A stretch of DNA of 22,091 nucleotides from IMG/VR virus record IMGVR_UViG_3300042446_002409, positions 1 to 22,091 of that record; one strand, given 5' to 3'. The stretch comes from a virus. The position numbers were made by a program, and so were the translations under genes. The notes below the pieces were generated by a model that worked only from the letters and a program-made list of their open reading frames with translations, did no database searches and was not told where the DNA came from. Position 1 is the first letter of the stretch. Every line of letters starts with the position of its first letter. Positions 5,237 to 19,871 of the stretch are shown here, piece after piece.

Positions 5237-5255
5237 CAACCGTGAGGGTCATCAC

Positions 5256-6051: not shown

Positions 6052-6763
6052 TCATGGTCGTTTGTGCGTTGGTATGTTGACCGTGGTGACGCAGGGTGCG
6101 CGTTCCTATACGGCCATTTTGTGTGAAATCCGTGTGGAATTGCTGGAATTCTGTCGCGGATCTCAAGGGAATGTGAGCCCTGACCAGCAGCAGCCAGCTC
6201 CCCGGAAATCCGGTTATGCTGGCATGTCGGCTTTGAGTTCTCATTCATCTGTCACACATCTGCCAGATTGGTGCCTTCGATCAATGTCTTTTTTCGCATG
6301 CATAGACAGCGTTCCAAACTCTAGCTCTATTTTTCATAATCACTGGACCCAGAGATTTGCTTTTGGAACTCGCGGAATCACTTTTTTGCTTTACTAACAT
6401 CCAATGTGGGTATAGGACATTCTTGCGCTTTGTCATCAAATAAATGAATGTAACGTAGGCCGGAACAAGCATTTGATTGCTAGTATACCAGCTTTGAATC
6501 ACCCTGATTACGTTTTGATAGGGGCGATTGGCATGGAGAATTTTGCTGAACCTCGCATGAGAAAAATATTCGAAAGTGGCCGCCCCCCATTTCAATCTTG
6601 ACTTCAATCTCATGATTAACTATATCCACTTGTTACCAAACAACAAACATTTATTAAAACATCAAAGTGCGAAAACTATGAATTCCAATTCAAAGAAAGG
6701 CAAAATTCGGCCGGATGGCTTGCGAACTTCCATTGCCTGTGTAGTATTTCATTTACCGACATT
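6052..6763. other. Intergenic stretch of 0.7 kb, no convincing gene
   Basis: This stretch lies between the recombinase remnant and the coiled-coil gene. It becomes AT-rich to the right of about 6250. Open frames exist on both strands (110 codons on minus at 6281-6613; 29-63 codons on plus ending at 6767), but none has a recognisable domain or supporting context. The plus frame ending at 6767 overlaps the next ATG as ATGA and could be a short leader ORF starting at 6679. No palindromic element of the phage type is present. Confidence 0.4.
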
Positions 6764-7174
6764 ATGAATCAGAATTTTGAGCAAATACTCGTACCTCAAC
6801 TTCTGAAAGACATTGAGCGACCATACAATATTCTTTTAAAATACCCAGGGTCTGTTCCTGACGAGGTGTTCAAATTGACAAAAAAAATTGATTCGGTATC
6901 TGCTAAAATTGCCGATTATCATCAAATTAAATTGAACCAAGCAGAAGGTGAGACTGAATCCTTAATTGATGCGGTTGTGACGGAAATCAATTCATTGCAA
7001 GCAAATCGCCGGAAAAAAAAGTTAGTTCGCTTACTAAATCTCATACAAGTACTAGGAGAAAGAAAAAAATCATTACTCGAGTGTCTCAATAAACGCCTAG
7101 AAACTATGACAGATCTTGTGTATGGAAGGCCGCCTGGTGATAACATCACCGAAGATTGGAGGGAACAGTTATAG
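6764..7174 (+). CDS. Coiled-coil hypothetical protein, 136 aa
   Basis: No family recognised. The protein is almost entirely helical in character, with heptad-like Leu/Ile spacing from about 10 to 120 and a basic patch (NRRKKKLVRLL). It ends in a short Gly/Pro segment. The start, gacattATG, has the CATTATG context shared with several plus-strand genes further right. It lies on the opposite strand to its neighbours, between the recombinase remnant and the HTH gene, so it is probably cargo of the same integrative relic. Low GC relative to the late genes supports separate origin. Confidence 0.6.
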   Translation: MNQNFEQILVPQLLKDIERPYNILLKYPGSVPDEVFKLTKKIDSVSAKIADYHQIKLNQAEGETESLIDAVVTEINSLQANRRKKKLVRLLNLIQVLGERKKSLLECLNKRLETMTDLVYGRPPGDNITEDWREQL

Positions 7175-7195
7175 TCACTTGGTGTCGAGTCTGAC

Positions 7196-7462
7196 TCATT
7201 TCACCGAGTCGATCTGGTATTGCTTCCGCAGCGTATCGAGAACAGCAGCGGCATCGTAGAGGAAGAAACGATTCCCGAGTTGCAGGTAGGGAATTTTGCG
7301 CTTGCGCGTCCAGTCGTCGATGGTGCGAGTGCTGACCGACAGACGCTTGGCGAGTTCTTTCTTTTTGATCAGAACTGGAGCACTTGTGATGGTGGCTACC
7401 GATGTTTCGACCGGGTGGCTACTATTCATTGTGGTGTGGTTCGTTGTGATTACAGCTTTCAT
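7196..7462 (-). CDS. Excisionase-like helix-turn-helix DNA-binding protein
   Basis: 88 aa. After a Thr/Ser-rich N-terminal tail, residues 31-80 form the compact winged-HTH typical of MerR/excisionase-type proteins: KKELAKRLSVSTRTIDDWTR is the HTH, followed by the wing around KIPYLQLGNRFFLY. Such proteins bind att or promoter DNA to direct recombination or transcription. ATG at 7460-7462 is used here; the second ATG (7427-7429) is equally possible and would remove the odd tail. It is oriented toward the recombinase remnant, a common HTH-integrase pairing, with the coiled-coil gene in between. It follows the 48-aa gene by 21 bp and could be read from the portal transcript. Confidence 0.8.
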   Translation of the reverse strand: MKAVITTNHTTMNSSHPVETSVATITSAPVLIKKKELAKRLSVSTRTIDDWTRKRKIPYLQLGNRFFLYDAAAVLDTLRKQYQIDSVK

Positions 7463-7483
7463 GGTTACGCATGGATAAGAATG

Positions 7484-7630
7484 TCAACGAATGGCCTCTC
7501 TGTTTTCTTCCTGCGCAATATTGCTCGCCTTGTGAATATCGCGACGAATGCCATCACGCGCTTCAAACAACGCCGTGCGGTATTGCGCCACACTGCGTTC
7601 TAAAATCTTATCTAGCAAATCATCTTCCAT
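7484..7630 (-). CDS. Small helical protein after portal, 48 aa
   Basis: ATG at 7628-7630, TGA at 7484-7486. The protein begins MEDDLLDKILERSVAQYRT and is charged and helical throughout. It starts 24 bp after the portal stop, on the same strand, so it is probably part of the portal unit. No family recognised. Coding character (charged heptads, no rare breaks) and tight spacing support it; function unknown. Confidence 0.55.
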   Translation of the reverse strand: MEDDLLDKILERSVAQYRTALFEARDGIRRDIHKASNIAQEENREAIR

Positions 7631-7654
7631 ACACTCATTCTTTACCGTCAACCG

Positions 7655-9310
7655 TTACTGCAAAATGCTTTGCGCCGTGGCGTAATCCACGCCGTAAACA
7701 CTCACCAAAGTATTGCGCGCCGTATCACGATCGATCTCGCCTTTGCCCACACTCGCCAATAGATCGATGATCTGTTTCGCGCCCTTATCGCCGATCTCGC
7801 CAAACAATCCAGGCGGCGGGGGAGGGGTGTCGCTAACGCCGCTTTTCGCTTTCTCCATCGCCGATAGCAACTCGGTAGGATTCCCCAAGCTCTGCACCAG
7901 TAACTCAAGGGGGACGCCATCACGCACAGCGATCTTTTTAAGAAGCTGAATCTCCGCACTGGCCTCGTTCGCTAGGTCGGCAAAATCACTCCCTAACTCA
8001 GCCGCCCACTTGGTGCGAGTTTTCACGCCATACTGCACCATCGTCGCATCGGCCTGTACCTGATGGCCCACATCGCCGGTGATCGTCGGTCCAAATTGCC
8101 AGTTTCCTTTGTTCCAGTTTTTCGTGGCACGGATGTCTTTCTTGGCAATGCCGATCAGCAGCACCCGCTTTTTCACGCGCTCCAGTAGAGTGTTGACGAT
8201 GATCTCCTGCCAACGACGAAACGTGCGCTGCGCTTGTTGCACTTCCAGACGTGCGGTGACACCGCCAAAGCTCGCCATGTTATAGACAAAGCCATACGGT
8301 AAATTCATCCCGATCGCAATCTCGCGGATGATCGCATCCACCAGATTCATAAACGCACCATTCGGGCGTTGCGTGCCGGGGGCAAAGTCAATGCCCTCAC
8401 CATCGGTCAGCCGCACCACAGATCCCGCTTGCGCGGCAAACGTCGGCAAGCCGCCAGTCGTCTTACCCGCTTTGTCCCAGTCCAGTCCATTCGTAGCATT
8501 CGGATCCTTGAGACGAATGAAAGCCGCCCAGCTCGATGCGAATTTTGCCGCGATTTTCTCAAAACCAAAAAGCTCATACAAATCCTGCGCATGAGGAATC
8601 ACCGGCTTCAAAATCGAAACGCCATGATACTGATCACTACGCGTCGGCTTGAACAGATGGATGAACCGCCCAGGTGTGATGTCGCCCTCTTTTTTATACT
8701 GGTTGTTCAGCGTGCGCTGGTAGATCTCGTAGTGTTTCACTTTTCCACGATCATCTAGCACGATGCCATTGATATTCGTCTCTGACTGGACATGCTGTTG
8801 AGGATTGCCGATGCGGTCACTCTCGATCGCTTGCAGTCGATACTCCATCGTCTTGGGATCGAAATGCTCCACCCATCCATGCTCACCGTCGCGAATCGTG
8901 GAGCGCAACCCCAGCTCGGCCATGCTACGCAGACGGTGACGACCCGTATAGTCGCACTCGCCGCACCAGTCATGGAAATATTCTTCATACTCGGTGTCGG
9001 CCTTTTCATCACCGGTAGCCGCCTGATACTCCAGATTGCCCACGGTATACATCGCGCATCGATCCAGAATACCCGCGACGATACAGAAAACTTCTTCCAT
9101 TTCCCGCGCCGCCCAGATTGCATTGATACGATCGCGCTGTTTCCTAGGTGCTTCGGATGCTCCCTGTGAATGGCCAGTGGGGGATGCTCCACGCGCTCTG
9201 CCGCCGCCAGTATCAAAGTTTTTCAGATTCTCCCGCGCCTGCGAACGCCGCACAGCCGCCGTCGGAAAGATCATGCCTAGCTGACGCTCATACCAATTCA
9301 GTTTACCCAT
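7655..9310 (-). CDS. Phage portal protein, lambda gpB family
   Basis: 551 aa from the ATG at 9308-9310. An in-frame TTG at 9320-9322 lies inside the palindrome and is less likely. The portal forms the dodecameric ring at the head vertex through which DNA enters and leaves and to which terminase and neck proteins bind. Evidence: the arginine-rich N-terminal region with RDRINAIW; a central GRFIHLFKPTRSDQYHGVSI (the 'r..q.RGvs' signature of lambda-type portals); then AFMNLVDAIIREIAIGMNLPY and FGGVTARLEVQQAQRTFRRWQ (stem and wing helices). A Pro-rich break (DTPPPPPG) separates a C-terminal helical tail that may be a lineage extra. Length is close to lambda gpB (533 aa). It lies downstream of the gpW-like gene as in lambda. 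Confidence 0.92.
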   Translation of the reverse strand: MGKLNWYERQLGMIFPTAAVRRSQARENLKNFDTGGGRARGASPTGHSQGASEAPRKQRDRINAIWAAREMEEVFCIVAGILDRCAMYTVGNLEYQAATGDEKADTEYEEYFHDWCGECDYTGRHRLRSMAELGLRSTIRDGEHGWVEHFDPKTMEYRLQAIESDRIGNPQQHVQSETNINGIVLDDRGKVKHYEIYQRTLNNQYKKEGDITPGRFIHLFKPTRSDQYHGVSILKPVIPHAQDLYELFGFEKIAAKFASSWAAFIRLKDPNATNGLDWDKAGKTTGGLPTFAAQAGSVVRLTDGEGIDFAPGTQRPNGAFMNLVDAIIREIAIGMNLPYGFVYNMASFGGVTARLEVQQAQRTFRRWQEIIVNTLLERVKKRVLLIGIAKKDIRATKNWNKGNWQFGPTITGDVGHQVQADATMVQYGVKTRTKWAAELGSDFADLANEASAEIQLLKKIAVRDGVPLELLVQSLGNPTELLSAMEKAKSGVSDTPPPPPGLFGEIGDKGAKQIIDLLASVGKGEIDRDTARNTLVSVYGVDYATAQSILQ

Positions 9311-9326
9311 ACCGTTACGCAACGGT
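9311..9326. promoter_or_regulatory. Palindromic element copy 4 (variant)
   Basis: ACCGTTACGCAACGGT touching the portal ATG, with the late-class flank. The change is in the central four bases only. Confidence 0.85.
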
Positions 9327-9340
9327 CAACCACCGCTGAT

Positions 9341-9634
9341 TTATAAACCACGGCGGCTCACCCCGCTGAAATCCACCGTGCCGCGCCGTCCACGGTACGG
9401 CGCTGGAGTCGCGGGCTCGGAGCCAGGATCGCCGGATGGAAACTTTTCATTCTTAATCCGCGTCGCCGCCTGCAGCCGATCACGCAGTTCATTCACATCT
9501 CGCGAGTGGTTGACGTTACTCGATCCTTGGCTCACGAATCCACCGGCCAGAGATTTCTTCAGTGTCACCAGCTCGGCCTCCAGCTCCGCTTGTGTAAATC
9601 CACGATAAATTTCTTCCCACGCCCCTGTCGCCAT
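9341..9634 (-). CDS. Small head-completion candidate (gpW-like position)
   Basis: 97 aa. The first 65 residues are predicted helical (EIYRGFTQAELEAELVTLKK, then NELRDRLQAATRI) and the tail is Gly/Pro/Arg-rich and disordered. Size, alpha-helical N-terminal domain and place immediately before the portal recall lambda gpW, which closes the packaged head and accepts gpFII. Sequence similarity to gpW itself is not obvious, so the call rests mainly on position. ATG at 9632-9634 touches palindrome copy 5. It is the first gene of the late module; the terminase expected before it is not present. Confidence 0.55.
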   Translation of the reverse strand: MATGAWEEIYRGFTQAELEAELVTLKKSLAGGFVSQGSSNVNHSRDVNELRDRLQAATRIKNEKFPSGDPGSEPATPAPYRGRRGTVDFSGVSRRGL

Positions 9635-9650
9635 ACCGTTACGTAACGGT
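9635..9650. promoter_or_regulatory. Palindromic element copy 5
   Basis: Perfect ACCGTTACGTAACGGT touching the ATG of the gpW-like gene, with the late-class flank (minus strand GTTGACCGTTACGTAACGGT). A T6 run precedes it on the minus strand (9665-9670), without a clear hairpin. Confidence 0.88.
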
Positions 9651-9708
9651 CAACATTCCCCCACAAAAAACACCTTGCCCTCACCGACGGACACGCTACC
9701 TTTTACTC

Positions 9709-9927
9709 ATGCCGAAAAAACCATTTCGCCTCCCTCTCTGGTTCGCCATACCTGCATGGACGGCGGTGATCGTCACCATTATCATTGCCAGCAAGCCGAT
9801 CCCCAAAGACAAAGATCCGCGCACGGCTCGCGAAAAACGCATCAACGCAGAAGACCAGCTCCGCCAAGAACGCCTCCAGCGCGCCGTCCAAGATGAGCTC
9901 ATCCGCATCGATCAAAAAAATCATTAG
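9709..9927 (+). CDS. Small single-pass membrane protein, 72 aa
   Basis: A short basic N-terminus (MPKKPFR), one strong transmembrane segment at about 9-27 (WFAIPAWTAVIVTIIIA), then a charged helical tail rich in Arg, Glu and Gln. This resembles small membrane proteins of lysis cassettes (holin or spanin-like) or superinfection exclusion, but no family is recognised and no endolysin is nearby. It diverges from the gpW-like gene. No Shine-Dalgarno is visible. The clear membrane topology argues for a real gene. Confidence 0.5.
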   Translation: MPKKPFRLPLWFAIPAWTAVIVTIIIASKPIPKDKDPRTAREKRINAEDQLRQERLQRAVQDELIRIDQKNH

Positions 9928-10022
9928 TCTTATTCGTCCCATCAGTCCTATTTCTTTCCGACGGCCCAGGTCAATTCGCGAGCGGACGGATTTACGTATA
10001 GTTATGATTAGTTAAGCATTTC

Positions 10023-10038
10023 ACCGTTGCGCAACGGT
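10023..10038. promoter_or_regulatory. Palindromic element copy 6 (doubly changed)
   Basis: ACCGTTGCGCAACGGT: both members of one symmetric base pair are changed relative to consensus, so the palindrome remains perfect. Flanks extend symmetry (TCACC...GGTGA). It stands five bases before the 67-bp repeats. Confidence 0.85.
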
Positions 10039-10043
10039 GATTT

Positions 10044-10244
10044 ACTACAAACATAGTAGTTTGTAACTGTCACACGTGAAACGTATAGAGGGTAGAGAGA
10101 CAGTCTCTCTACTACTTTTGTAGTAGTTCGTAACTGTCACACGTGAAACGTATAGAGAATAGAGAGACAGTCTCTCTACTACTTTCGTAGTAGTTTGTAA
10201 CTGTCACACGTGAAACGTATAGAGGGTAGAGAGACAGTCTCTCT
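10044..10244. repeat. Three phased 67-bp direct repeats (iteron/centromere-like)
   Basis: Units start at 10044, 10111 and 10178 with no spacer. Each contains ACTAC-N5-TAGTAGT, a parS-like TGTCACACGTGAAACG (10068, 10135, 10202) and the odd palindrome AGAGAGACAGTCTCTCT. Junctions of units 1/2 and 2/3 form perfect hairpins CTACTAC-TTTT-GTAGTAG and CTACTAC-TTTC-GTAGTAG. Against the chromosomal parS consensus TGTTTCACGTGAAACA the 16-mer matches at 13 positions. Differences between units are few. Function as origin iterons, partition site or operator array is inferred from structure and from the gene that follows. Confidence 0.85.
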
Positions 10245-10277
10245 ACTGAAAATACTTTATAAAGTCATGGAAGAAAG

Positions 10278-10307
10278 TTGACAATTGTATGTAAAATTAC
10301 ATACAAT
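10278..10307 (+). promoter_or_regulatory. Sigma70-type promoter with overlapping 13+13 bp operator
   Basis: TTGACA (10278-10283) and TACAAT (10302-10307) are 18 bp apart. A perfect inverted repeat, CAATTGTATGTAA and its complement separated by AA (10282-10309), covers the whole spacer and the -10. A dimeric repressor bound there would block polymerase; the orphan gene just downstream is an obvious candidate for autoregulation. Confidence 0.75.
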
Positions 10308-10333
10308 TGCGCCCCCACAAGGGGCATGAAATT

Positions 10334-11287
10334 ATGATTACCACTACTTCACTCACTGGATTGCTTGCGGCGCAAGCAATGAAAAATGAATCTAACGAAA
10401 AAGTCTGCGCCTTGCGCGAAAAAATCGGAAACGATTTGGTTTTTTCATCGTTTCCCTATACGGGAAAAAATGAAGACATCACGCCGCGAAATATCGGAGA
10501 CATTGCGCAAGTCATAGAAAACGTCACCCGCTACGTTTCCAAGCAAATCGCGAAATCAATCAATAAAAGCACTTCATTCGGAAAAGAGTTTTCTTCACTG
10601 GATGCGGGCGCAAGATTGATTCAACGCGCGAAAGAAAAAAGCAAGGCAAGCGGAAATTTTTACGCTTTTTCAGAACACGATTTGAACGAAATTCGCGGCG
10701 CAGTCTCTCTATACTTTTCCGCCTATGGCGTGTTTACGTTGCGCCCTTTCAACCTTGCTATCCCAAGAAATTTACTCATGCTTATAGTGAATCACGTGAA
10801 ATCGATTGATTGCCTAGAGTTGAATCGATTTCGCAAGGGTAAACATTCTTCACTGGATGCGTTGCAAGGTGAAAAAAGCGACAGCCTAGAAAGTGAATTT
10901 TCAGATGATGATGAATTTTTCAACCCTAGCAATGAAATTTTCACGCCGCAAGATTTCGCGGAAGATTGCGACGATATCGCGAAAAATAATGAAGATTTCG
11001 ACTCCCTAGCTGAAAAAATTGACGCTATCAATTCAATGATTGATTGCTATCACGATTGCAGCGACTCCCGCAGAAAAGAGGGAGACAGAAAAAAAGACAA
11101 GCAATTTTTTCAAGATTGCCTAGCAATGAACGCATGCGGAAACGGTGAAACCAACGAAAGTTGGAGACAGAAAAAATCACGATGGGTGAAAATAGTCGTG
11201 CGGGGGCATGAAATTATGCGCGAAAATTCAAATGATGGAAAATCATTCAATAATTTTTCCCACCTAGCCACACTTTTCAAATCCTAA
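10334..11287 (+). CDS. Orphan AT-rich gene; candidate replication initiator or regulator, 317 aa
   Basis: No family recognised. From the ATG at 10334-10336 the protein has a mixed alpha/beta N-terminal half (residues 1-170, with helices around ITPRNIGDIAQVIENVTRYV and LNEIRGAVSLYFSAYG), a very acidic middle (about 195-250) and a basic C-terminus (RQKKSRWVKIVVRGHEI). A TTG at 10307 would add nine residues but overlaps the promoter. AAGGGG nine bases before the ATG is a rare plausible Shine-Dalgarno here. The gene has its own strong promoter/operator and terminator, and repeats upstream, so a replication initiator, partition or master regulatory protein is suggested by context alone. Base composition is markedly more AT-rich than the flanking genes. 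Confidence 0.75.
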   Translation: MITTTSLTGLLAAQAMKNESNEKVCALREKIGNDLVFSSFPYTGKNEDITPRNIGDIAQVIENVTRYVSKQIAKSINKSTSFGKEFSSLDAGARLIQRAKEKSKASGNFYAFSEHDLNEIRGAVSLYFSAYGVFTLRPFNLAIPRNLLMLIVNHVKSIDCLELNRFRKGKHSSLDALQGEKSDSLESEFSDDDEFFNPSNEIFTPQDFAEDCDDIAKNNEDFDSLAEKIDAINSMIDCYHDCSDSRRKEGDRKKDKQFFQDCLAMNACGNGETNESWRQKKSRWVKIVVRGHEIMRENSNDGKSFNNFSHLATLFKS

Positions 11288-11293
11288 CATCTG

Positions 11294-11327
11294 AAAAAAG
11301 GCGCGAAAAAAATCGCGCCTTTTTTTT
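11294..11327 (+). terminator. Strong intrinsic terminator after orphan gene
   Basis: GGCGCGA (11300-11306), loop of six A, TCGCGCC (11313-11319) and eight T. A run of six A before the stem allows function on the minus strand too. Confidence 0.9.
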
Positions 11328-11376
11328 AAGATCAGGCAAGCCGTCCGCGCTCGCCATGCGATTTCTTCACTACCTC

Positions 11377-11429
11377 ACCGTTACGTAACGGTGAAACGAA
11401 AAAACACTTTTTCACCGTTACGTAACGGT
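11377..11429. promoter_or_regulatory. Paired palindromic elements, copies 7 and 8
   Basis: Two perfect ACCGTTACGTAACGGT copies at 11377-11392 and 11414-11429, 37 bp apart start to start, upstream of the Ala-rich coiled-coil gene. Both extend outward (TCACC...GGTGAAAC), unlike late copies. The second ends 26 bases before the ATG. Confidence 0.88.
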
Positions 11430-11455
11430 GAAACAATCAACGAAAAACAAACATT

Positions 11456-12526
11456 ATGGCAACACGTAAAAAAGCGGAACCATCCGCAAGCAGTCATGGC
11501 TTTGGTCTAACCATCGCCGCCGCCCTCCTCCTAACACCTGACCAAGCAGCAGATGAATTTGCTGAGCGTGCCAACGTGCGCCGTCTCTGCTTTCAAGACC
11601 AAGGAAAGCTGATTCACTCCATGAATCAAACCGGCTTGCCATCTGGCGAAACGGTTTACGGAATCCTCCGCGCTCGCGGCGTGGGAGAGTCTAGCATCCA
11701 GAACGCCAAGCGCGCTGCGGATGTGATCGCCGAGCTGGTCGCCTCCGAGCTGGTATCGGAAGCCGAACTCGATGCCGTGCTGACTCACCGCTTTGCGGTT
11801 GACTACAAGCGTTGCATCGCCGGAAAAATCACCGCTGAAACAATCGCCGAGATTGTGAAGCAGCCGAACGCTGCCGCCGAGATTGAATGTCTCGCCGCCA
11901 ATGGCAAAACGCTCTCTCAAATGGCTGCCGATGCCGAGACGAAAAAAGCCGCCGCCGCGCAAGCGATTGTGGACAAGCAAAATGCCGATTCCACCGCTGC
12001 CGCCGATGCCGCCGCGAAAGCTGCCACCGCGAAAGCGGATGCAGAGAAAGCCAAGGCCGCCGCCGCCGCCGCGAAAGCGGAAGCAGACAAAGCCACCGCT
12101 GCCGCCACCGCCGAAAAAGCGGAAGCGGAAAAAGTCAAATCTGCCGCCTCTACGGAAAAAGCGGAAGCCGCGAAAGCCACCGCCGATGCCACAAAGTCGA
12201 AAGACGATGCCGCCGCCTTAAAAGCGGAAGCGGAAAAAGTCAAAGCTGCCGCCGCCGCTGAGAAAGCTGCTGCTGAGAAAGCCACCGCCGATGCGGAAAA
12301 ACGCCTGGCAGAACTCGCCGCCGCTGAGAAAGCTGCCGAGAAAGCTGCCGCTTCATCCAAGCCGAAAAAACCAACGCCGGATGACATACTGCAGAATCTC
12401 GCCGCTGCGCTTGCCGCATGTTTCAATCTGCCGATGGACTCCTTAGCGGGCGTCCCGAATATGCTCCTCGCTGCCGCGGAAGAAATCGAAGCCCATCTTG
12501 AAGCCTCCACCTCGAAAGCCGCTTAA
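11456..12526 (+). CDS. Ala/Lys/Glu-rich coiled-coil protein, 356 aa
   Basis: Three parts. Residues 1-155 are a normal globular-looking domain with helix-rich sequence (LPSGETVYGILRARGVGESS; SELVSEAELDAVLTHRFAVDYKR). Residues about 160-305 are a long low-complexity Ala/Lys/Glu region of near-heptad repeats (KAEAEKVKAAAAAEK), TolA-like in composition. Residues 306-356 form a small helical domain (TPDDILQNLAAALAACF). No family recognised for the ends. The start has CATTATG context and lies after paired palindromes; a strong terminator follows, so it is a single-gene unit. It may be a bridging or structural protein, and function is not inferable. The 197-codon minus-strand frame opposite is a compositional shadow. 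Confidence 0.8.
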   Translation: MATRKKAEPSASSHGFGLTIAAALLLTPDQAADEFAERANVRRLCFQDQGKLIHSMNQTGLPSGETVYGILRARGVGESSIQNAKRAADVIAELVASELVSEAELDAVLTHRFAVDYKRCIAGKITAETIAEIVKQPNAAAEIECLAANGKTLSQMAADAETKKAAAAQAIVDKQNADSTAAADAAAKAATAKADAEKAKAAAAAAKAEADKATAAATAEKAEAEKVKSAASTEKAEAAKATADATKSKDDAAALKAEAEKVKAAAAAEKAAAEKATADAEKRLAELAAAEKAAEKAAASSKPKKPTPDDILQNLAAALAACFNLPMDSLAGVPNMLLAAAEEIEAHLEASTSKAA

Positions 12527-12544
12527 AAATTCGAGCATCCCCCC

Positions 12545-12585
12545 ATGCCCCGCACTCTCCAAAAGAGAGTGCGGGGCATTTTTTT
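12545..12585 (+). terminator. Strong intrinsic terminator
   Basis: A 15-bp perfect stem, ATGCCCCGCACTCTC (12545-12559) with its complement (12565-12579), loop of five bases, then seven T starting with the last stem base. Confidence 0.92.
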
Positions 12586-12620
12586 GTGACGGGCTATCCG
12601 TCCGTGAACTCCAACACATT

Positions 12621-12797
12621 ATGCAAGTAGAAATTGAAAACAACGTCCTAGTCATCCGTATGCCCATGAACGAGCCGCGCCCTAGTGCCAGCGGCAAAAC
12701 TCTGGTCGTCGCATCAAGCGGTGGAAATCAAACCACCACCGCTGTCGTCAATGGTAAGAAAGTCATCATCGGACTCAACGCTTACATCCCTCGTTAA
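12621..12797 (+). CDS. Conserved small phage-type protein, 58 aa
   Basis: Starts at the ATG at 12621 (acacattATG); longer frames reach back through the terminator and are rejected. It has a beta-rich start (MQVEIENNVLVIRMPM) and the stretch SGKTLVVASSGGNQTT followed by VVNGKKVIIGLNAYIP. I recall this pattern (SGKTLVVAST.GN ... G..v.+GLNAYI) from many short hypothetical proteins in phages and mobile elements; no function is known to me. It sits between a terminator and paired palindromes as a unit of its own. Confidence 0.75.
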   Translation: MQVEIENNVLVIRMPMNEPRPSASGKTLVVASSGGNQTTTAVVNGKKVIIGLNAYIPR

Positions 12798-12802
12798 TTC
12801 CT

Positions 12803-12849
12803 ACCGTTACGTAACGGTGAATGTCAAAAATTCACCGTTACGTAACGGT
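12803..12849. promoter_or_regulatory. Paired palindromic elements, copies 9 and 10
   Basis: Perfect copies at 12803-12818 and 12834-12849, 31 bp apart start to start, just upstream of the clamp-like gene. A longer reading frame starting at 12821 would translate copy 10 and is judged unlikely. Confidence 0.88.
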
Positions 12850-12871
12850 CACACTTTCACTGCATCACATT

Positions 12872-13930
12872 ATGATCACACTCCCAATCCCTTTCCTTTC
12901 CGCTTGTCGGCACCTCGTCAATCCCGCCTATCGCATCTTTGAAAATAAGGTCGAGTGCGCAGAGATTATCCAGTCTCGCGATGGCACGTCGATCTATTTC
13001 GGCGATGTCATCATCACCGCCGATCTGCTGCAATCGCATCCGGACACGGAATTTTTTCGCATGAAGAAATGGCCGTCCATGGATCCTGGCTGCCTCACGA
13101 TCAAGAATGGCACTCTGCACTATGCCTACAAAAATCACCGGCAAACCACCATGGTCGAGCCGATAACTCAACCAGAAGCAGCACTCCCCGAAATTGTCTG
13201 GTCAGAAGAAAGCATCACGCCTGATCAATCTGCGCCGCTCATGTCCATCACCCCTTTCCAAAGCAAAGATGAAACACGCTACGTGCTGATCGGTGCGCTC
13301 TGCTCGGATGCCTACATCGCCACCGATGGCCGCCGCCTGCTCAATCTGAGTAGCAGTTACACCGGCACTCCTTTCATCATGCCGTCTGCTATCTTAGCCG
13401 TCATGATCGCGCTACACCTAAAAAAGCCAGCCGCTTACTGGCGCTGGAATACCCTCATCGATGATAACAATAGTGTGACCACGGCAAAAATCGAAACAGA
13501 TTCTTACACCGTCCAGTTCAAAGCCGTCTATGGCAATTTCCCAAACTGGAAGCAAGTCATCCCTGCGATTGACTACGCCACCAGCAATGTCAAATTCATC
13601 CCCAATCCGTCCTCGATCGATTCCATGGCAACATGGCTCCGTGGGCGAGCTGGCTGTATGTTCATTCCTCATGAGGGAAATATCTTACTCTACGACGTGA
13701 CTCTGAAAAGCCACGCGATTTTCCCGGGCTACCTGTCCACCACCTGCTGTTATAATGGCACATGGTTTAAGGACATGCTTTCCGTCCCTGGCTTCCACCA
13801 GATGTATTCGGTAGATAAAGAATCACCCGCCATTTTCGAATTCACCGGAGGCATGGGCGTCCTCATGCCTATCCGCTCGACTGTTGACGTGGAAGCACTT
13901 CTTGAAGACTACGCACTCACTACCGCATGA
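12872..13930 (+). CDS. DNA polymerase beta sliding-clamp-like protein (DnaN-like)
   Basis: 352 aa from the ATG at 12872 (cacattATG), close to the usual 360-380 aa of bacterial beta clamps. Recognisable pieces: DAYIATDGRRLLNLS (the central-domain 'vaTDghRLa' signature), VYGNFPNWKQVIP (matching 'fPdy.rviP') and, at the end, SPAIFEFTGGMGVLMPIR (matching the C-terminal 'rPv.i...d....lMPmr'). The first domain is diverged. Clamps encircle DNA and tether polymerase; a phage copy would serve element replication or recruit host polymerase on its own terms. No polymerase gene is in the window. The stop overlaps the next ATG as ATGA. Call is by motif order, without a search. Confidence 0.8.
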   Translation: MITLPIPFLSACRHLVNPAYRIFENKVECAEIIQSRDGTSIYFGDVIITADLLQSHPDTEFFRMKKWPSMDPGCLTIKNGTLHYAYKNHRQTTMVEPITQPEAALPEIVWSEESITPDQSAPLMSITPFQSKDETRYVLIGALCSDAYIATDGRRLLNLSSSYTGTPFIMPSAILAVMIALHLKKPAAYWRWNTLIDDNNSVTTAKIETDSYTVQFKAVYGNFPNWKQVIPAIDYATSNVKFIPNPSSIDSMATWLRGRAGCMFIPHEGNILLYDVTLKSHAIFPGYLSTTCCYNGTWFKDMLSVPGFHQMYSVDKESPAIFEFTGGMGVLMPIRSTVDVEALLEDYALTTA

Positions 13931-14088
13931 ACCATTCATCCACACCCGCTCTACTCAGCCTCCCGCTCACCATCCTCACCCGTGAAAGCACCATTCTTCA
14001 CGAACGCGCTTTGCCCGATGGCAAAGGTGATGGAGCCAGCCCTTACACCAAAGTTTATCCGGAACCAACGCCTGCTGCACAGCCGTAA
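13927..14088 (+). CDS. Small ORF coupled to clamp-like gene, 53 aa
   Basis: ATGA overlap with the clamp-like stop; TAA at 14086-14088. It begins MNHSSTPALLSLPLTILTRE and ends in a Pro/Ala-rich tail. No family recognised. The 4-base overlap and the terminator-like hairpin shortly after its stop favour translation. Confidence 0.55.
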   Translation: MNHSSTPALLSLPLTILTRESTILHERALPDGKGDGASPYTKVYPEPTPAAQP

Positions 14089-14122
14089 GCTGAGCAGACA
14101 TTACTGACTAACTATAACCAGT

Positions 14123-14150
14123 CGGCACGGAAGCAATTCCGTGCCGTTTC
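14123..14150 (+). terminator. Intrinsic terminator-like hairpin
   Basis: CGGCACGGAA (14123-14132), GCAA loop, TTCCGTGCCG (14137-14146), then TTTCTGTTTATTT. A good stem and stable tetraloop, with an interrupted T tract, so some readthrough into the DUF3150 operon is likely. Confidence 0.7.
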
Positions 14151-14183
14151 TGTTTATTTCTGCAACCGCTAAAAATCTTCATT

Positions 14184-14990
14184 ATGCACGCACTACTCAT
14201 TCGACTCCGTATTTCAACGATCACCACCAGCCGCAAGGACAAGTATCTCACCGAGTCCACCATCGCCGCCAACAATGCCGCCGCCGATGCCGGACGCTGG
14301 ACAAATACCCTATGGCCTGCAGAAGCTCTCCGCCCGATCAAAGCAGCGGAAGCAGCTCTCCGCGCTCACACTTATCTGAAAACCGCGCCGTTCTCTGACG
14401 TCGGCGATCGTATCTTGCCGTCGGTAAAGTTTTTCGACTTCATGGAAACCTACCGTGAACTTGAAGCCGAGCGCATCAAGAAATGCGAGGAGTTCATCAT
14501 GAACTACGATCGCTGGGTGAACAAAGCTCTCCACATGCGCGGCTCGCTGTTCAATATGGACGACTACCCGACAGCAGTGGAAGCCAGTCGCTCGTTCTCC
14601 GCAAAGATGGACACCAAGCCGGTGCCTGAATCCTCACACTTCCCTAGCGATATCTCCGCTCTGGATGAAATCAAAGCCAGCCTCAATGAGCAAATCGAGG
14701 AGGGCATCAACAATGCCAAGCGCGATATCTCCATGCGCATCATCAAGCCGCTAGAAGCTTTCTTGGAGAAAGCCAGTTCTGACATTGGCACCATCAGCGT
14801 GACCACCGTGAAAAGTATCACCGAGATCGCCGACATCATCGCTGACCTAGATTTCGATGGCAGCTACACCGCCACCATCACCGCTCTCCGCGCACTGAAT
14901 CTGGACGCCGCAGAACTCCGCACCGACGAATGGGCTCTCAACCAAGCCAAGCGCAGCGTCGATGATATCCTCACAAAATTTCTCCCCTAA
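14184..14990 (+). CDS. DUF3150-like protein
   Basis: 268 aa. The series of features matches what I recall of DUF3150: an early DAGRWTNTLWP (near 'DaGryNk.L'), SDVGDRILPSVKFFDFM (near 'D.G.R.LP...y..f'), a helical stretch of Arg/Glu, DDYPTAVE (near 'dYP') and PVPESSHF, followed by a helical C-terminal half. DUF3150 genes are found in phages and plasmids next to CobS-like AAA+ and CobT/VWA genes, exactly the neighbours here (34 bp to the MoxR gene). Function is not known; partner or substrate adaptor of the ATPase is a fair guess from linkage. The start has CATTATG context. Confidence 0.75.
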   Translation: MHALLIRLRISTITTSRKDKYLTESTIAANNAAADAGRWTNTLWPAEALRPIKAAEAALRAHTYLKTAPFSDVGDRILPSVKFFDFMETYRELEAERIKKCEEFIMNYDRWVNKALHMRGSLFNMDDYPTAVEASRSFSAKMDTKPVPESSHFPSDISALDEIKASLNEQIEEGINNAKRDISMRIIKPLEAFLEKASSDIGTISVTTVKSITEIADIIADLDFDGSYTATITALRALNLDAAELRTDEWALNQAKRSVDDILTKFLP

Positions 14991-15024
14991 GCATCCACAC
15001 TGATCACTGATCACTTCAACTACC

Positions 15025-16023
15025 ATGTCACCATCCACACTTAGCAACACTCTCACCACCGCCTTTGGCAACAACATCAAGATTCTGATCAAAGGTGCTC
15101 CGGGCATCGGCAAATCAGAAATCGTAGAAGCCGCGGCGAAAGCCAACGGCATGCCAGTGGTGCTCATGCACCCTGCCGTCTCTGACCCGTGCGATTTCAA
15201 AGGGCTGCCAGCCCTCACTCCTACCGGCGCGGAATTCCTGCCCTATGGCAACCTCCGCGACCTCATCAACGCTACAGTGCCTACCGTCTGCTTCATCGAT
15301 GACATTGGGCAAGCCGCCCCCGCCGTGCAAGCCGCCGTCATGCAGCTCATCCAAGCGCGTCGCATCGATGGCGTGGCAATCTCTGACCATGTTCTCTTTG
15401 TGGGTGCTACCAATGACAGCACTCACATGGCTGGCGTCCAGTCACTACTGGAGCCGGTAAAGTCACGCTGGCATTCGATTGTCGAACTCACAGCGGATCT
15501 CACCGACTGGGTGGACTGGGCTTCGAAAAATAAAATCGCGCCTATCATCATCGCTTTCTGCCGATTCCGCGGCATCAAAGCACTCCATGATTTCACTCCT
15601 ACCCGAGAAATAAAAAACTCCCCATCACCGCGCACCGTCGCCGCCGCCTCTAAGCTCTACCTCTCGGGGCTCACTTCTACGGAAGTGATCGCCGGAGCCA
15701 CGGGCGATGGCTGGGCGGCTGAATTCTCCGCCTACGAAAAAATCTGGCGGCAGATGCCAGACCCAGATGACTGCATCAAGAACCCTACCACCGCCACCGT
15801 CCCACCATCGCATGACGTCGCCACTTGCTACGCCATCAGCGTCGCCATCAGCCTACGCCTCAATCAAGGCAACATGGCTGGCGGCCTTGCCTACCTGACG
15901 CGACTGGACAACGAGTATTCCGTCCTCGCCATCGCCGATGCGCGCCGCCGCGATAACGACATCACCAACACCAAAGCCTTTGTGGATTGGGCAGTTAAAT
16001 ACGGACACCTTTTAGCACGATGA
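15025..16023 (+). CDS. MoxR/CobS-type AAA+ ATPase
   Basis: 332 aa. Walker A GAPGIGKS at 24-31, Walker B VCFIDDI with D92-D93 (a DD in place of the common DE), sensor 1 FVGATND with N130, and an arginine-finger region EPVKSRWH. The MoxR character also shows in CDFKGLPAL (near 'd..G.p') just before Walker B. MoxR ATPases act as chaperone-like remodelling motors with VWA partners; phage CobS/CobT-like pairs have no proven cobalamin role. The stop overlaps the SymE-like start as ATGA, and two genes downstream is a VWA protein, so a functional complex is likely. The long C-terminal part (150-332) is helical, as in the family lid and extra domain. Confidence 0.88.
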   Translation: MSPSTLSNTLTTAFGNNIKILIKGAPGIGKSEIVEAAAKANGMPVVLMHPAVSDPCDFKGLPALTPTGAEFLPYGNLRDLINATVPTVCFIDDIGQAAPAVQAAVMQLIQARRIDGVAISDHVLFVGATNDSTHMAGVQSLLEPVKSRWHSIVELTADLTDWVDWASKNKIAPIIIAFCRFRGIKALHDFTPTREIKNSPSPRTVAAASKLYLSGLTSTEVIAGATGDGWAAEFSAYEKIWRQMPDPDDCIKNPTTATVPPSHDVATCYAISVAISLRLNQGNMAGGLAYLTRLDNEYSVLAIADARRRDNDITNTKAFVDWAVKYGHLLAR

Positions 16024-16178
16024 AAAACAGAAAATCCACCGTCGTCCAGGACGTGAACCGCGCTCCATTTCTTCGCCTCCGTGGGAAATGGCTCGCCGCG
16101 GCGGGATTCCCCACCGGAACCCAAACCACCGTCACCGTCACTCCTAACGGAATCTTGATAACACCCGTATTACCATGA
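16020..16178 (+). CDS. SymE-like mini-protein between AAA+ and VWA genes, 52 aa
   Basis: ATGA overlaps at both ends (16020-16023 and 16175-16178), so it is tightly coupled to both neighbours. The core APFLRLRGKWLAAAGF followed by TTVTVTPNGILIT matches the SymE-like pattern ('p.L.L+G.WL..aGF..G..v.V.v..g.l.i'), an AbrB/SpoVT-type swapped-hairpin fold. E. coli SymE is an SOS-induced nucleic-acid-compacting toxin; many homologs in mobile elements are uncharacterised. Here it is shorter, about half the length of E. coli SymE, and consists of the fold alone. It could be a toxin, a DNA-binding adaptor or an operon regulator. Real by overlap and motif; function open. Confidence 0.72.
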   Translation: MKNRKSTVVQDVNRAPFLRLRGKWLAAAGFPTGTQTTVTVTPNGILITPVLP

Positions 16179-17293
16179 CCATCAATGACCGTATCTCTAA
16201 GGCGAGGATCTCCATGATTCTCGATATGCCTTTCTTCGGAGCCCTTGCTTTCAAGCTCGGCACCGTGATCGATAATTCGATCCCCACCGCCTGCACCGAT
16301 GGCAAGGTAATCCGCTTCAATGAAGAATATGTAGCGTCCCTCTCCAATCCAGAACTCACTGGACTACTGGTAGAGGAAATAGGGCATTGCGCGTTCGGGC
16401 ATATTTGGCGCATGGAAAACCGCGATCATGAACGCTGGAACGTGGCGTGTGATCAAGTGCTTTGGCGCATGATCGCCCAGCTCGGCGAGAAAAGTAGTCT
16501 ATGCAAACTCTCTGCCGACTGCCCAATCAATCCGCGATTCGATGGGCTTTCCGCAGAAGAAATTTACCATTTATTGCCAAAACAAAAAGACTCACCGCGC
16601 CCCACTCCATCACGCGGCGAAATGGCTCCCGCTTCGGCAGATCCAGAGCAAGCAGAGGAACTCAAAACCGACTGGGAAACCGCCGTGCAAGGCATCGCCA
16701 CCGCCGAGCGCATGAAAGGCAAAGGGCAAATGCCCGCTTGGATGGAAGAACTCGTCCATGCGTCCATGACTCCCAAAATCCCCTGGACGGATACGCTCCG
16801 CGACTTCGCTCGCATCGCCGCCAAGGACGATTACTCCATATCGCGCCCTAACCGTCGCTACCTGCACTCCGGATTCATCCTGCCGTCACTTTACTCTGAA
16901 AAATTAGGAACCATCGTCGTCGCCATCGACACCAGCGGCAGCATCAACATGGACATCCTCCAAGAGATGCTTGCCGAGCTCCAGTCCATCCTCGATAGCA
17001 GCCGTCCCCAGTCCATCACTTTGATCGATTGCGACAGCCGCATCAATCAAACCAGAGAATTCACACCGGGCGATAATCTCGCAGAATTCAGAGTGAAAGG
17101 CGGAGGCGGCACAAACTTCCGTCCTGTTTTCGAGCATGTCGCCGAAAAACAAATTGACCCCGCTTGCCTCATTTACCTCACCGATCTCGACGGCTCATTT
17201 CCAAAAGAAGAGCCGCCCTATCCCTCGCTCTGGATCAACTATGGGCACCCAAGACAAGTCGCCCCTTTCGGACAAACCATCAATGTCGCGTAA
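16175..17293 (+). CDS. VWA-domain protein with degenerate zincin-like N-terminus (DUF2201-like)
   Basis: 372 aa. The N-terminal domain has LLVEEIGHCAFGHIWRM (H71, H76), like the 'HEllH...gH..R' motif of DUF2201 putative metallopeptidases, but with Glu where the first His should be. The C-terminal VWA domain carries a complete MIDAS: IDTSGSIN (D252, S254, S256), GGGGTNF (T313) and YLTDLDG (D337). An acidic and proline-rich linker lies near 135-175. VWA/MoxR pairs act together, the VWA protein usually selecting the substrate. The start overlaps the SymE-like stop. The missing His suggests the peptidase part is inactive or uses other ligands. Confidence 0.85.
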   Translation: MTINDRISKARISMILDMPFFGALAFKLGTVIDNSIPTACTDGKVIRFNEEYVASLSNPELTGLLVEEIGHCAFGHIWRMENRDHERWNVACDQVLWRMIAQLGEKSSLCKLSADCPINPRFDGLSAEEIYHLLPKQKDSPRPTPSRGEMAPASADPEQAEELKTDWETAVQGIATAERMKGKGQMPAWMEELVHASMTPKIPWTDTLRDFARIAAKDDYSISRPNRRYLHSGFILPSLYSEKLGTIVVAIDTSGSINMDILQEMLAELQSILDSSRPQSITLIDCDSRINQTREFTPGDNLAEFRVKGGGGTNFRPVFEHVAEKQIDPACLIYLTDLDGSFPKEEPPYPSLWINYGHPRQVAPFGQTINVA

Positions 17294-17346
17294 CAAAAAA
17301 CGCACTCAAAAGATGACACGATAACATAATTAACCTTTTAATAAAA

Positions 17347-17571
17347 ATGAAACGTATCGACATCATCACTAACAAAAATCACTACATCGCCGTTTATCGT
17401 CACCCCGCCATCATTTGCTGGAAGCCGATCAAACTCCCTTTCTGGTCACTGATTTTTCCCTCACCGTTACGTAACGGTATCGCCCATCGAATCGCTATGA
17501 AAAAATGCCCCCCTAACTGCATTTTCCAATACCTCACAACTTCTCTCACCACCGGACTCCTACGCCAATGA
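17347..17571 (+). CDS. Hypothetical protein containing a palindromic element, 74 aa
   Basis: No family recognised. It begins MKRIDIITNKNHYIAVYRHP and becomes hydrophobic and aromatic in the middle. Palindrome copy 11 (17463-17478) lies inside the frame, so either the element is tolerated in coding sequence or the true gene starts after it at the ATG at 17497 (24 aa). The stop overlaps the next ATG as ATGA, in favour of translation to this end. The 53-bp gap after the VWA gene is AT-rich. Confidence 0.4.
   Translation: MKRIDIITNKNHYIAVYRHPAIICWKPIKLPFWSLIFPSPLRNGIAHRIAMKKCPPNCIFQYLTTSLTTGLLRQ
17463..17478. promoter_or_regulatory. Palindromic element copy 11
   Basis: Perfect ACCGTTACGTAACGGT, with TCACC on the left flank only. 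It lies 89 bases upstream of the 111-aa gene start, within a possible 74-aa frame. It is the rightmost copy and helps mark the extent of the element. Confidence 0.85.
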
Positions 17572-17919: not shown

Positions 17920-17996
17920 CACAAACCCAGCGGAATAGCATGTTTTCGTGAATTTTCATACAGAATGTAGAATGTAGAATGTTAATTATCTTATTT
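17920..17996. repeat. Shared 3' flank of FGE gene 1 (repeat with 19808-19871)
   Basis: About 65-75 bp similar to the sequence after FGE gene 2: ACCCAGCGGAATA, CATGTTTTC, GAATTTTCAT, then the stop-proximal TTATTTTTC, with a few substitutions. This copy has a three-fold 7-bp repeat (GAATGTA type) that the other has once. It could be residual gene duplication or the initiation and hairpin sequences of a diversity-generating system. Confidence 0.75.
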
Positions 17997-19544
17997 TTCG
18001 GATGGAACTAGGGCGGGACGGAAGCCGAGGATGATGACCCGGTAGTCTTGGCCGCGCCTGTCCCGGTTGGCCGCGCGGCAGCCATCGGCGCCGTGATTCA
18101 GCGAGCCGCCGCGAAGCACGCGGCGGACGCCCGATGAATGCCCTAATGGATCAGTGCCGCCCGGCAGCTCATTGCCATACCAGTCCAAACACCACTCCGA
18201 CACGTTCCCATGCATATCGTGCAGTCCCCAGGCATTCTGCTTCTTTGTTCCTACGGGGTAGGTCTTAATTCCGCTGTTTTCATCATACCATGCTACTTCA
18301 TCGATCGAACCGCCTGAAAATGGACCCTTTTCTCCTGCACGACACGCATACTCCCACTGTGCTTCGGTTGGTAAGCATACTTTCCAGCCAGCAGGAATCT
18401 CTCCGCTCCCATTCACCTTCTTGATGAACTCCTGAGCGTCAAACCAGCTAATGTTCTCCACAGGCAGGTTATCTCCTTTGAAAGTGCTAGGGTTACTCCC
18501 CATCACTGCGCTCCATTGCGCCTGAGTTACCTCTGTCTTTGCCATCCAGAAGGCTTTACTTAGGGTTACGCTTACCTCATTTTCGTCGTCAGAACGACCG
18601 TCTTCCGTCGACGGACTTCCCATCGTGAAAGATCCCGCCGGACAAAAGGCAAAGGGCATGACCCACTTTCCAGCCAACGGTATATCCAACGTGGCTCCTA
18701 CTCGCCCGGCGCCAATTTTGTGGTATAGTTTGGCCTTTGCTTGAGCAGCTTGTTGCTCAGCCTTGAGTTTTGCTTGAGCAGCTTGTTGCTCAGCCTTGAG
18801 CTTTGCTTCAGCAGCTTGTTGCTCAGCCTTGAGCTTTGCTTCAGCAGCTTGTTGCTCAGCCTTGAGCTTTGCTTTAGCGGCTTGTTGCTCAGCCTTGGCC
18901 TTGGCCTCTACAAATTGTTTGTGTTTGTTTTTAGCTCTCAACCCAATAATTAAAGTTATAATCACTGTCAATGCCGCGATAGTAACATTGATGTAGCTAA
19001 GCAATTGATTCTGATCTTGTTTAGCTCTAAAGCTAATGACTGAAGTCACACACACTATCAATGCCGCGATAGCAACAATGATATAGATAAACATCTCTAT
19101 ATCGGCGCACTTCTTGCAAGTATTATCAGTGATTATTAAATCAGTTTGGGGAACACGACAATTGCATTTTTTGCACTCTACGACACGCGCTGCGATTTCA
19201 GACTTTAGTTTTCTGGCCTTATCTCTCGACATTTTTGCCTCCGCTTGCTGTTGTAGCCATTTCTCTGTACTTTTCCTTTCTCTGTATTCTGCTTCTTGGG
19301 GCTTGTAAGGTAAGCCGTCCACCCATGATACACCAGAGGTACAATGTTGGCATTTATCGCATATTCCCGGCAGCGCCCCGCCGCACCAAGGACATTGCCT
19401 GTTCTTAGGAATTTTTTGCTGTTGATTCTGTGCGTTGATCATTCTTTGCCGCTGCAGCATTGCTGCAACAGCGGCTTGATCTTGAAAATCATTTGGATCG
19501 TAAGACATATAAGGATTGTAATTCAAAGATGATCGATGTCGCAA
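17991..19544 (-). CDS. Membrane-anchored zinc-ribbon/FGE-sulfatase-fold protein 1, with variable region
   Basis: 517 aa from the ATG at 19544; an ATG at 19508 (MSYDPNDF) is an equally good start. Order: Gln-rich N-terminus; zinc-ribbon cysteines C51/C54 and C62/C65/C68; a second set C124/C127/C129 and C143/C146; two transmembrane helices (about 150-172 and 181-203); five copies of an 11-residue coiled-coil repeat (AEQQAAEAKLK); then an FGE-sulfatase/formylglycine-type lectin domain from about 280, with MPFAFCPAGSFTMGSP, LPTEAQWEYACRAG and HGNVSEWCLDW. The C-terminal RVLRGGSLNHGADGC block and the following 25 codons form the likely variable region. The catalytic cysteine pair of true FGE is not complete, suggesting a binding protein rather than an enzyme. 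Confidence 0.85.
   Translation of the reverse strand: MRHRSSLNYNPYMSYDPNDFQDQAAVAAMLQRQRMINAQNQQQKIPKNRQCPWCGGALPGICDKCQHCTSGVSWVDGLPYKPQEAEYRERKSTEKWLQQQAEAKMSRDKARKLKSEIAARVVECKKCNCRVPQTDLIITDNTCKKCADIEMFIYIIVAIAALIVCVTSVISFRAKQDQNQLLSYINVTIAALTVIITLIIGLRAKNKHKQFVEAKAKAEQQAAKAKLKAEQQAAEAKLKAEQQAAEAKLKAEQQAAQAKLKAEQQAAQAKAKLYHKIGAGRVGATLDIPLAGKWVMPFAFCPAGSFTMGSPSTEDGRSDDENEVSVTLSKAFWMAKTEVTQAQWSAVMGSNPSTFKGDNLPVENISWFDAQEFIKKVNGSGEIPAGWKVCLPTEAQWEYACRAGEKGPFSGGSIDEVAWYDENSGIKTYPVGTKKQNAWGLHDMHGNVSEWCLDWYGNELPGGTDPLGHSSGVRRVLRGGSLNHGADGCRAANRDRRGQDYRVIILGFRPALVPSEK
18024..18120 (-). other. Candidate DGR variable region of FGE gene 1
   Basis: Compared with gene 2, flanking codons (RGGS, CRAA, GFRPALVPSEK) are conserved, while the codons between differ almost only at positions 1 and 2 and mostly end in C: CAC/CGC, GGC/AAC, GGC/AGC, AAC/TAC, GAC/CTC, CGC/AAC, GAC/GGC, TAC/GGC, GTC/GAC, ATC/TAC, ATC/TCC. 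That is what adenine mutagenesis of AAC template codons leaves. Confidence 0.7.
18736..18900 (-). repeat. 33-bp tandem repeat, five copies, in FGE gene 1
   Basis: TTGTTGCTCAG recurs at 18750, 18783, 18816, 18849 and 18882, exactly 33 bp apart. It encodes the 11-residue coiled-coil unit. Near-identity between copies indicates recent slippage or unequal exchange; copy number may vary between strains. Confidence 0.9.
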
Positions 19545-19547
19545 TTA

Positions 19548-19742
19548 CTAACAGACACTTTTTGCACTAGGCTGCAATGCAGAGTCATGAATCACATAGA
19601 CGTCCAGTCCACCCATCTTGATGTTTTCTCTGGATTTCGTGACAACAAAAATCTGCCTGGTGACATCAACCGGTTTCTTAGAACAGGCTGGTATGATTGA
19701 TAAAAAGACAAGTGCAAGGAGGCAAGATTGAATAAGTTTCAT
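19548..19742 (-). CDS. Small putative lipoprotein, possibly truncated, 64 aa
   Basis: A lipoprotein signal is clear: MKLIQSCLLALVFLSIIPAC with the lipobox Cys at residue 20, followed by SKKP. The rest (DVTRQIFVVTKSRENIKMGG, then LDVYVIHD) resembles the start of longer verrucomicrobial envelope proteins I recall with 'QIFVVTKgrENiKlG', which continue well beyond this point. Here it stops after SALQPSAKSVC, four bases before FGE gene 1. It may be a real short lipoprotein or the stub of a longer gene cut when the paralogs recombined. Confidence 0.6.
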   Translation of the reverse strand: MKLIQSCLLALVFLSIIPACSKKPVDVTRQIFVVTKSRENIKMGGLDVYVIHDSALQPSAKSVC

Positions 19743-19807
19743 GTTCGTTTTTGTTTAGATCTTCTTGATAGCATCAGCAGTGATTAACTGGACAGGAGGA
19801 CGGGTTT

Positions 19808-19871
19808 TTTACAACCCAGCGGAATAACATGTTTTCATGAATTTTCATGTAGAATAGTAATTGTCTTATTT
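19808..19871. repeat. Shared 3' flank of FGE gene 2
   Basis: Matches 17920-17996 over most of its length. In the coding direction it contains CATGAAAATTCATG, a perfect 7+7 inverted repeat within ACATG...CATGT, and then GGGTT...AACCC (complement of 19799-19818), a weak terminator-like hairpin. Confidence 0.7.

Follow-up and report, generated by a model that had tools for sequence, protein, structure and literature searches.

We identified a divergent bacterial-type beta sliding clamp (DnaN) encoded at 12872-13930 on the plus strand of a phage sequence. The reading that we favour, and consider fairly probable, is that the host polymerase III (Pol III) works on this phage-encoded, DnaN-type clamp, which would be loaded by the host and would probably act early.

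The phage and its family

The window, that is, the whole stretch of DNA analysed, comprises an entire IMG/VR record of 22,091 bases and is a fragment of a tailed-phage genome with a portal gene (PHROG 21, 3.1e-48). Contig G008 overlaps window positions 1-8288 at 99.8%; the right end of the window is covered piecewise by G007, the best pieces at 90-97%. Genes for an integrase, a Cro/CI-type repressor, a terminase and an SNF2-type helicase are present on G007, and the phage is therefore probably temperate. Neither of the two contigs extending the window phage carries the clamp. Querying the viral contigs directly with the window clamp returned nothing, and family contigs were recruited through the AAA neighbour gene; five related contigs and one distant contig keep the clamp in its cassette, and most of the contigs are fragments. 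The host search of genome contigs gave a single distant match, a contig of a Draconibacterium metagenome-assembled genome (MAG). The 65-kb relative G002 encodes a CHC2 (DnaG-type) zinc-finger primase and an SNF2-type helicase.

Several other features were observed in these sequences. The 65-kb relative carries a Mom-family DNA modification gene (L013 9189-9932, minus strand), and an overlapping phage contig (L021 3-5678) encodes an MmeI-type restriction-methylation protein, a DEAD helicase and a T5orf172 protein in a row, likely a defence island. In the window, three tandem 67-bp repeats with inverted repeats (10043-10247) precede the gene at 10307 and are a candidate origin or regulator site. 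By eye, the structural region contains the C-terminal part of a tyrosine recombinase (5485-5871, minus strand; no NCBIfam match), perhaps an integrase remnant. Two tandem paralogous coiled-coil genes occupy 17991-22079 (minus strand), with C-termini that resemble formylglycine enzymes by eye; across this stretch, the sequence of the overlapping contig L008 departs from that of the window.

The frame encodes a DnaN-type clamp

The clamp gene and its domains, whose boundaries are approximate, are as follows.

12872-13930, plus strand: beta-clamp (DnaN-like) gene, 352 aa (ORF, PHROG, Foldseek, VIA-align and relatives' profile)
12872-13192, plus strand: domain I, about residues 1-107
13193-13555, plus strand: domain II
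13556-13927, plus strand: domain III

The open frame extends over 12821-13930 (plus strand), with an in-frame stop immediately upstream of 12821. Codon usage favours a start at 12872 rather than 12821: the codon log-odds were -0.34 over 12821-12871 and +0.18 over 12872-13192 in frame, and over the latter stretch they were negative in both other forward frames. Codon use was coding-like throughout the clamp frame, domain I included, with a training set that contained clamp domains II-III and left domain I out.

The clamp assignment of the initial annotation was borne out by sequence and structure searches. The window protein matched PHROG 947 'DNA polymerase processivity factor' (5.4e-7) and TIGR00663 (0.002, far below the cut-off), and a clamp profile built from five relatives, with the window left out, matched it at 2.8e-32 over model positions 94-370; because of this last match the identity is firm. 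It also matched PHROG 3007 'RusA-like Holliday junction resolvase' (1.2e-7). A resolvase function was rejected, as the Bcep781 and Sciku members are annotated as clamps (a note 'DNA Pol III b subunit fragment' in Bcep781, sliding clamp in Sciku); given these annotations, the RusA-like label of PHROG 3007 (L033, L034) looks wrong. In Pfam, the window copy alone had no match, and the whole 22,091-base record held no Pfam-level match to the DnaN C-terminal domain. All four relatives tested exceeded the cut-off for the central domain (PF02767), and PF02768 was below cut-off in three of them and not reported in the remaining one.

A single-chain AlphaFold model built from a 22-row alignment had a mean pLDDT of 72.3, and most of domains II and III scored near 90; a second run with six close rows was worse throughout (mean 43.4) and was set aside. 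The best 50 PDB rows from Foldseek were all DnaN clamps or DnaN-containing complexes (top E 6.2e-15). VIA-align placed the model on DnaN with Z 21.1 and an rmsd of 3.2 over 258 residues, superposing up to about residue 336, with approximately 11-19% identity to DnaN in structural alignments. T4 gp45 was absent among the structural matches listed by Foldseek and VIA-align. At the sequence level, phmmer with the window clamp found no PDB match, and the profile of the 22-row alignment, which is dominated by relatives of the window clamp, found 55 PDB sequences (best 6.6e-76), all beta clamps by molecule name, including two MutL fusions and one SMT3 fusion. Alignment A4 left out 10 of 31 loci (L049, L057, L058, L059, L060, L064, L065, L067, L070 and L071). 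In the model, domains II-III have the DnaN fold, and domain I is not confidently predicted.

The peptide-binding cleft is conserved

Conserved columns of the 22-row alignment showed that the window clamp retains L139, T151, G153, L156, P224, V229, M332, P333 and R335, which we take to be the residues of the E. coli beta peptide-binding cleft and to have the same role. The C-terminal MPxR end (V330-L331-M332-P333-I334-R335) is aligned with the family, and a Q stands where E. coli has R246. Scans of phage proteins for clamp-binding motifs, which the initial annotation had proposed as a check, gave no partner above the level of shuffled sequence; this was a weak test, and the patterns of the second scan miss QLVLGL and QLSLPL, two motifs known from the literature.

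Domain I is diverged

The initial annotation had described the N-terminal domain as diverged, and the results agree. Window domain I has about 107 residues versus about 135 in relatives (approximately 27 shorter), the pLDDT is below 50 at residues 1-43 and 48-107, and the relatives' clamp profile aligns to the window copy only from position 94. The domain-I profile of the relatives found nothing in the window clamp, and a PDB sequence search with window domain I returned no convincing relative (one row at 0.83). We also rejected a frameshift within domain I, as the domain-I profile matched none of the other forward frames and codon usage agrees with the frame.

In a normal beta clamp, domain I forms half of the dimer interface. 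This domain was neither recognised nor modelled in the window copy, so that ring closure is putative, a point against the favoured reading. An open protein that forms no ring, and instead titrates host clamp-binding proteins or blocks host replication, would explain why an unrecognisable and shortened domain I accompanies a conserved cleft; however, relatives at the same position keep a DnaN-like domain I, with PF00712 reported in 4/4 tested, all below the curated cut-off (1.6e-4 and 2.1e-4 in L003 and L005, just below it), and we regard such a decoy as improbable. It is very improbable that the gene is a decaying copy losing function from its N-terminus. The lost domain I similarity and the palindrome pair directly before the gene would fit decay, but the frame is open over 352 codons and coding-like in all three domains, and the cleft residues are conserved.

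Shorter clamps occur elsewhere. L048 (7968-8714) and L049 (7926-8657) carry DnaN-type clamps of about 245 aa that lack domain I and apparently consist of domains II and III only, and clamps that are still shorter (173-204 aa) were found in the PolA-encoding phages L033, L034 and L070. A 963-aa ORF in L065 (7923-10811) contains two clamp-like stretches and is perhaps a clamp fusion or an interrupted clamp. A two-domain, perhaps trimeric, clamp class among phages is possible. That phage beta clamps are losing domain I, with the window copy unrecognisable and L048/L049 apparently two-domain, seems to us a long shot. If two-domain clamps still ring DNA, another closure would be needed, for example three two-domain subunits as in PCNA or gp45, and trimeric closure, if true, would be a dimer-to-trimer transition inside one clamp family.

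Polymerases and clamp loaders in clamp-bearing phages

We surveyed clamp-bearing records for polymerases of families A (PolA), C (DnaE) and B (PolB). None was found in G000-G008, nor in G009 or G010, and all three were absent from the six close clamp-bearing family records (window included, fragments among them). Across 46 clamp-bearing virus records, DnaE was found in 0/46 and PolA in 3/46; PolB was found in none of the 20 tested. The 26 further clamp-bearing contigs yielded one PolA (G035, below cut-off) and no DnaE, and the 14 named phage records yielded PolA in two (Sciku and Bcep781) and neither DnaE nor PolB. The named phages were hand-picked from 32 records listed; the omitted records comprised those of Salmonella and Campylobacter, which are probably cellular DNA, along with duplicates, fragments lacking annotation and a number of others. 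The 46 records are not 46 independent cases, because they include near-copy pairs (L056/L057, L055/L064, L066/L067, L061/L062 and L048/L049).

The PolA carriers (W07, W08 and G035) are all records with clamps of 173-204 aa, and short clamps without PolA also exist (L048, L049). PolA and DnaE were undetected in every full-length-clamp phage record tested. Eleven named records with full-length clamps (Pyei1, AmM-1, 16-3, Psul1, Mae-JY04, Rivra, X2_25, NV1.1.1, TM3_3_14B, yong2 and CL131) are described as complete genomes or complete sequence, and polymerase absence there is therefore no fragment artefact. As the window is a genome fragment, it speaks by itself only for the vicinity of the clamp; the initial statement that no polymerase lies near holds for PolA, DnaE and PolB, both in the window and among its relatives. 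ORFs called or matched as 'DNA polymerase/primase' occur in phage 16-3 and in G002, the latter a partial match of the profile's C-terminal part to PHROG 19930 with no Pfam match, so a primase-polymerase may be present; this class was covered by a Pfam scan of some ORFs only. The clamp loader (PF13177) was found in 0/10 records, fragments among them.

These results best support host-polymerase recruitment, one of the two roles that the initial annotation had suggested: full-length-clamp records, including the 11 complete ones, lack PolA and DnaE, and the cleft is conserved. Given the conserved cleft, the missing polymerase and loader, and the other replication genes of the family, the simplest reading is use of the host Pol III and loader. 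The clamp would probably act early, during phage DNA replication: the host clamp loader would put the phage ring on phage DNA, the host Pol III core would bind the clamp cleft, and host ligase or repair proteins may also bind there. Phage DNA would thus be copied by the host polymerase on a phage-encoded clamp.

The clamp lies in a conserved cassette

The cassette around the clamp gene contains the following features.

12545-12579, plus strand: strong hairpin resembling an intrinsic terminator, with a 15-bp stem and a T run, upstream of the cassette
12621-12797, plus strand: g12621, conserved cassette gene of 58 aa, directly before the palindrome pair
12803-12818: palindrome ACCGTTACGTAACGGT, first of the pair before the clamp gene
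12834-12849: palindrome ACCGTTACGTAACGGT, second of the pair
13927-14088, plus strand: 53-aa ORF overlapping the clamp stop (ATGA), from the ORF list
14123-14146, plus strand: terminator-like hairpin (10-bp stem, T-rich tail) that closes the clamp unit
14184-14990, plus strand: g14184, conserved cassette gene of 268 aa, function unassigned
15025-16023, plus strand: MoxR-type AAA ATPase (AAA_5; PHROG 1297)
16175-17293, plus strand: VWA protein with an N-terminal putative metallopeptidase domain (DUF2201_N and DUF2201; PHROG 1314)

Between the two terminator-like hairpins lie g12621, the palindrome pair, the clamp and the 53-aa ORF, which is probably co-translated with the clamp. On our best explanation of this layout, the clamp would sit in its own small transcription unit behind an operator-like palindrome pair. 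A small SymE-like ORF lies between the AAA and VWA genes (16020-16178, plus strand).

The order g11456, g12621, clamp, g14184, AAA, VWA is common to the window, L002, L003, L004, L005 and L026, and the more distant L053 has g12621, clamp, g14184, AAA and VWA all present. The clamp was inside the locus in 7/11 AAA-gene loci. In G005, a 25-kb family fragment, the cassette is present and the clamp was not detected; no clamp turned up when the whole records of G005, G006 and G010 were searched. The Draconibacterium genome behind L025 gave a single clamp match, on another contig, which is probably the cell's own dnaN. A role of the MoxR ATPase as clamp loader was unsupported, as it matched AAA_5 and reached only 0.0097 against PHROG 168 (clamp loader).

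The neighbours bear on another role, in which the clamp serves as a toolbelt in phage recombination, repair or nuclease steps and not in bulk replication, recruiting host ligase, MutS/MutL or Pol I-type factors. In some named phages, seen in Rhizobium phages 16-3, X2_25 and TM3_3_14B, the full-length clamp lies near exonuclease, Cas4-like nuclease, Sak4-type annealing or helicase genes. Beside the window clamp, by contrast, Pfam and PHROG recognised no recombination gene, the neighbours being MoxR/VWA and unassigned genes, and we consider this role unlikely.

Palindromic start elements

The initial annotation had tied the clamp to unusual late-gene start elements, a link that found no support: the elements proved to be palindromic, and two of them precede the clamp gene. 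The clamp-gene pair consists of perfect 16-bp palindromes with two-fold symmetry, and the same palindromes precede other plus-strand genes as well. The late minus-strand genes share one start element, and four palindrome copies in the window lie immediately next to the ATG of minus-strand genes (starts 1605, 5220, 9310 and 9634). The pattern CCSTTNCGNAASGG has 11 copies in the window versus 0 in shuffles and 13 copies in the 70,000 bases of G002 tiles, with overlaps counted, and it is absent from the G005 tiles and from L053, L046, L025, L027, L007, L069, L047, L028 and L029; G005 carries a different repeated palindrome. By eye, 5/5 close relatives have at least one palindrome of the same plan and different letters between g12621 and the clamp or the preceding small gene, and L002, L004 and L026 have two such copies each.

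Near-perfect palindromes stand before many genes, with ACCGTTACGTAACGGT in the window phage and ACCCTT(G/A)CG(C/T)AAGGGT in relatives; they are spread over window 1606-17478 (11 copies), L010-L017 and L022-L026. The late genes of the window and overlapping contigs often follow the plan TTGAC, palindrome, ATG, which leaves no space for a Shine-Dalgarno sequence.

Because the palindromes are symmetric and precede the clamp and other plus-strand genes, they look more like the operator of a DNA-binding protein that acts as a dimer than like a late promoter dependent on the clamp. Judged from sequence, they are probably the co-evolving operator of one phage regulator.

The second role suggested initially, a late-transcription platform as in T4, was thus unsupported. 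In this role, a phage-encoded accessory protein of RNA polymerase would hold the loaded clamp, which would activate late promoters. It was proposed by analogy with T4 gp45, which activates late transcription through gp33 and gp55 (PMC2988020), and the late minus-strand genes do have a common start element. The T4 model requires gp33 and gp55, and none of our results pointed to either. However, that element is the palindrome found before the clamp and other plus-strand genes, no sigma-like match at a convincing E-value was found among the window proteins scanned, and the 79 called ORFs contained 0 T4-like clamp-binding tails (0.24 expected, so a weak test). We therefore regard this role as highly improbable and retain host-polymerase recruitment as the favoured reading.

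Relation to known systems

The window clamp resembles E. coli beta (DnaN) in fold and cleft and differs in its unrecognisable domain I. Kazlauskas and Venclovas reportedly surveyed viral replicases in 2011. DnaN-like clamps are annotated in many phage records, and polymerase-less phage clamps are an uncommon but already known, annotated arrangement. Those of the temperate phages compared (Rhizobium phage 16-3 p081, Aurantimonas phage AmM-1 gp50, Paracoccus phages Psul1 and Pyei1, and Rhizobium phage RR1-A) are annotated as DNA polymerase III beta subunit or processivity factor and, like that of the window, are full-length and DnaN-like. As in the window family, no PolA, DnaE or PolB was found in these records; the clamp of relative L003 is 26-29% identical to theirs. 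Unlike the window, the temperate-phage clamp stretches examined showed no MoxR/VWA cassette.

The clamp of cyanophage vB_AphaS-CL131 (ORF145), which its authors report as a beta subunit (PMC6293099), directly adjoins a MoxR-like ATPase and a VWA protein, and no polymerase was found. This clamp has 469 aa, and g14184 and g12621 were not found in the 6.7-kb stretch examined. The MoxR-like ATPase, VWA and beta clamp thus stand in a row outside the window family (L040 1-4056). The same MoxR-vWA(metallopeptidase) domain pairing occurs in jumbo phages, where a MoxR ATPase and a vWA protein with an N-terminal metallopeptidase have been described and a function in virion assembly proposed; unlike in the window, the accessible sections of that source link the pair to no clamp (PMC7824862).

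T4 gp45 is likewise a phage-encoded sliding clamp (PMC2988020, PMC9690074), but it is a two-domain trimer with its own polymerase, loader, gp33 and gp55, whereas the searches with the window clamp point to DnaN. Viral clamps have already been classified into cellular and viral homologues (PMC9690074). Our literature search matched no paper on a phage clamp with a host polymerase, nor on MoxR with a sliding clamp. As far as the literature was searched, only the window family, its cassette and the altered domain I are new here.

Implications

The MoxR/VWA cassette, also present beside the cyanophage clamp, is a lead to the function of that pair. The window phage offers a testable case of a phage with its own clamp apparently borrowing the host polymerase. 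With a clamp of its own, the phage could give its forks an advantage or evade control acting on the host clamp, and the identity of the clamp, rather than that of the polymerase, could decide whose fork is served.
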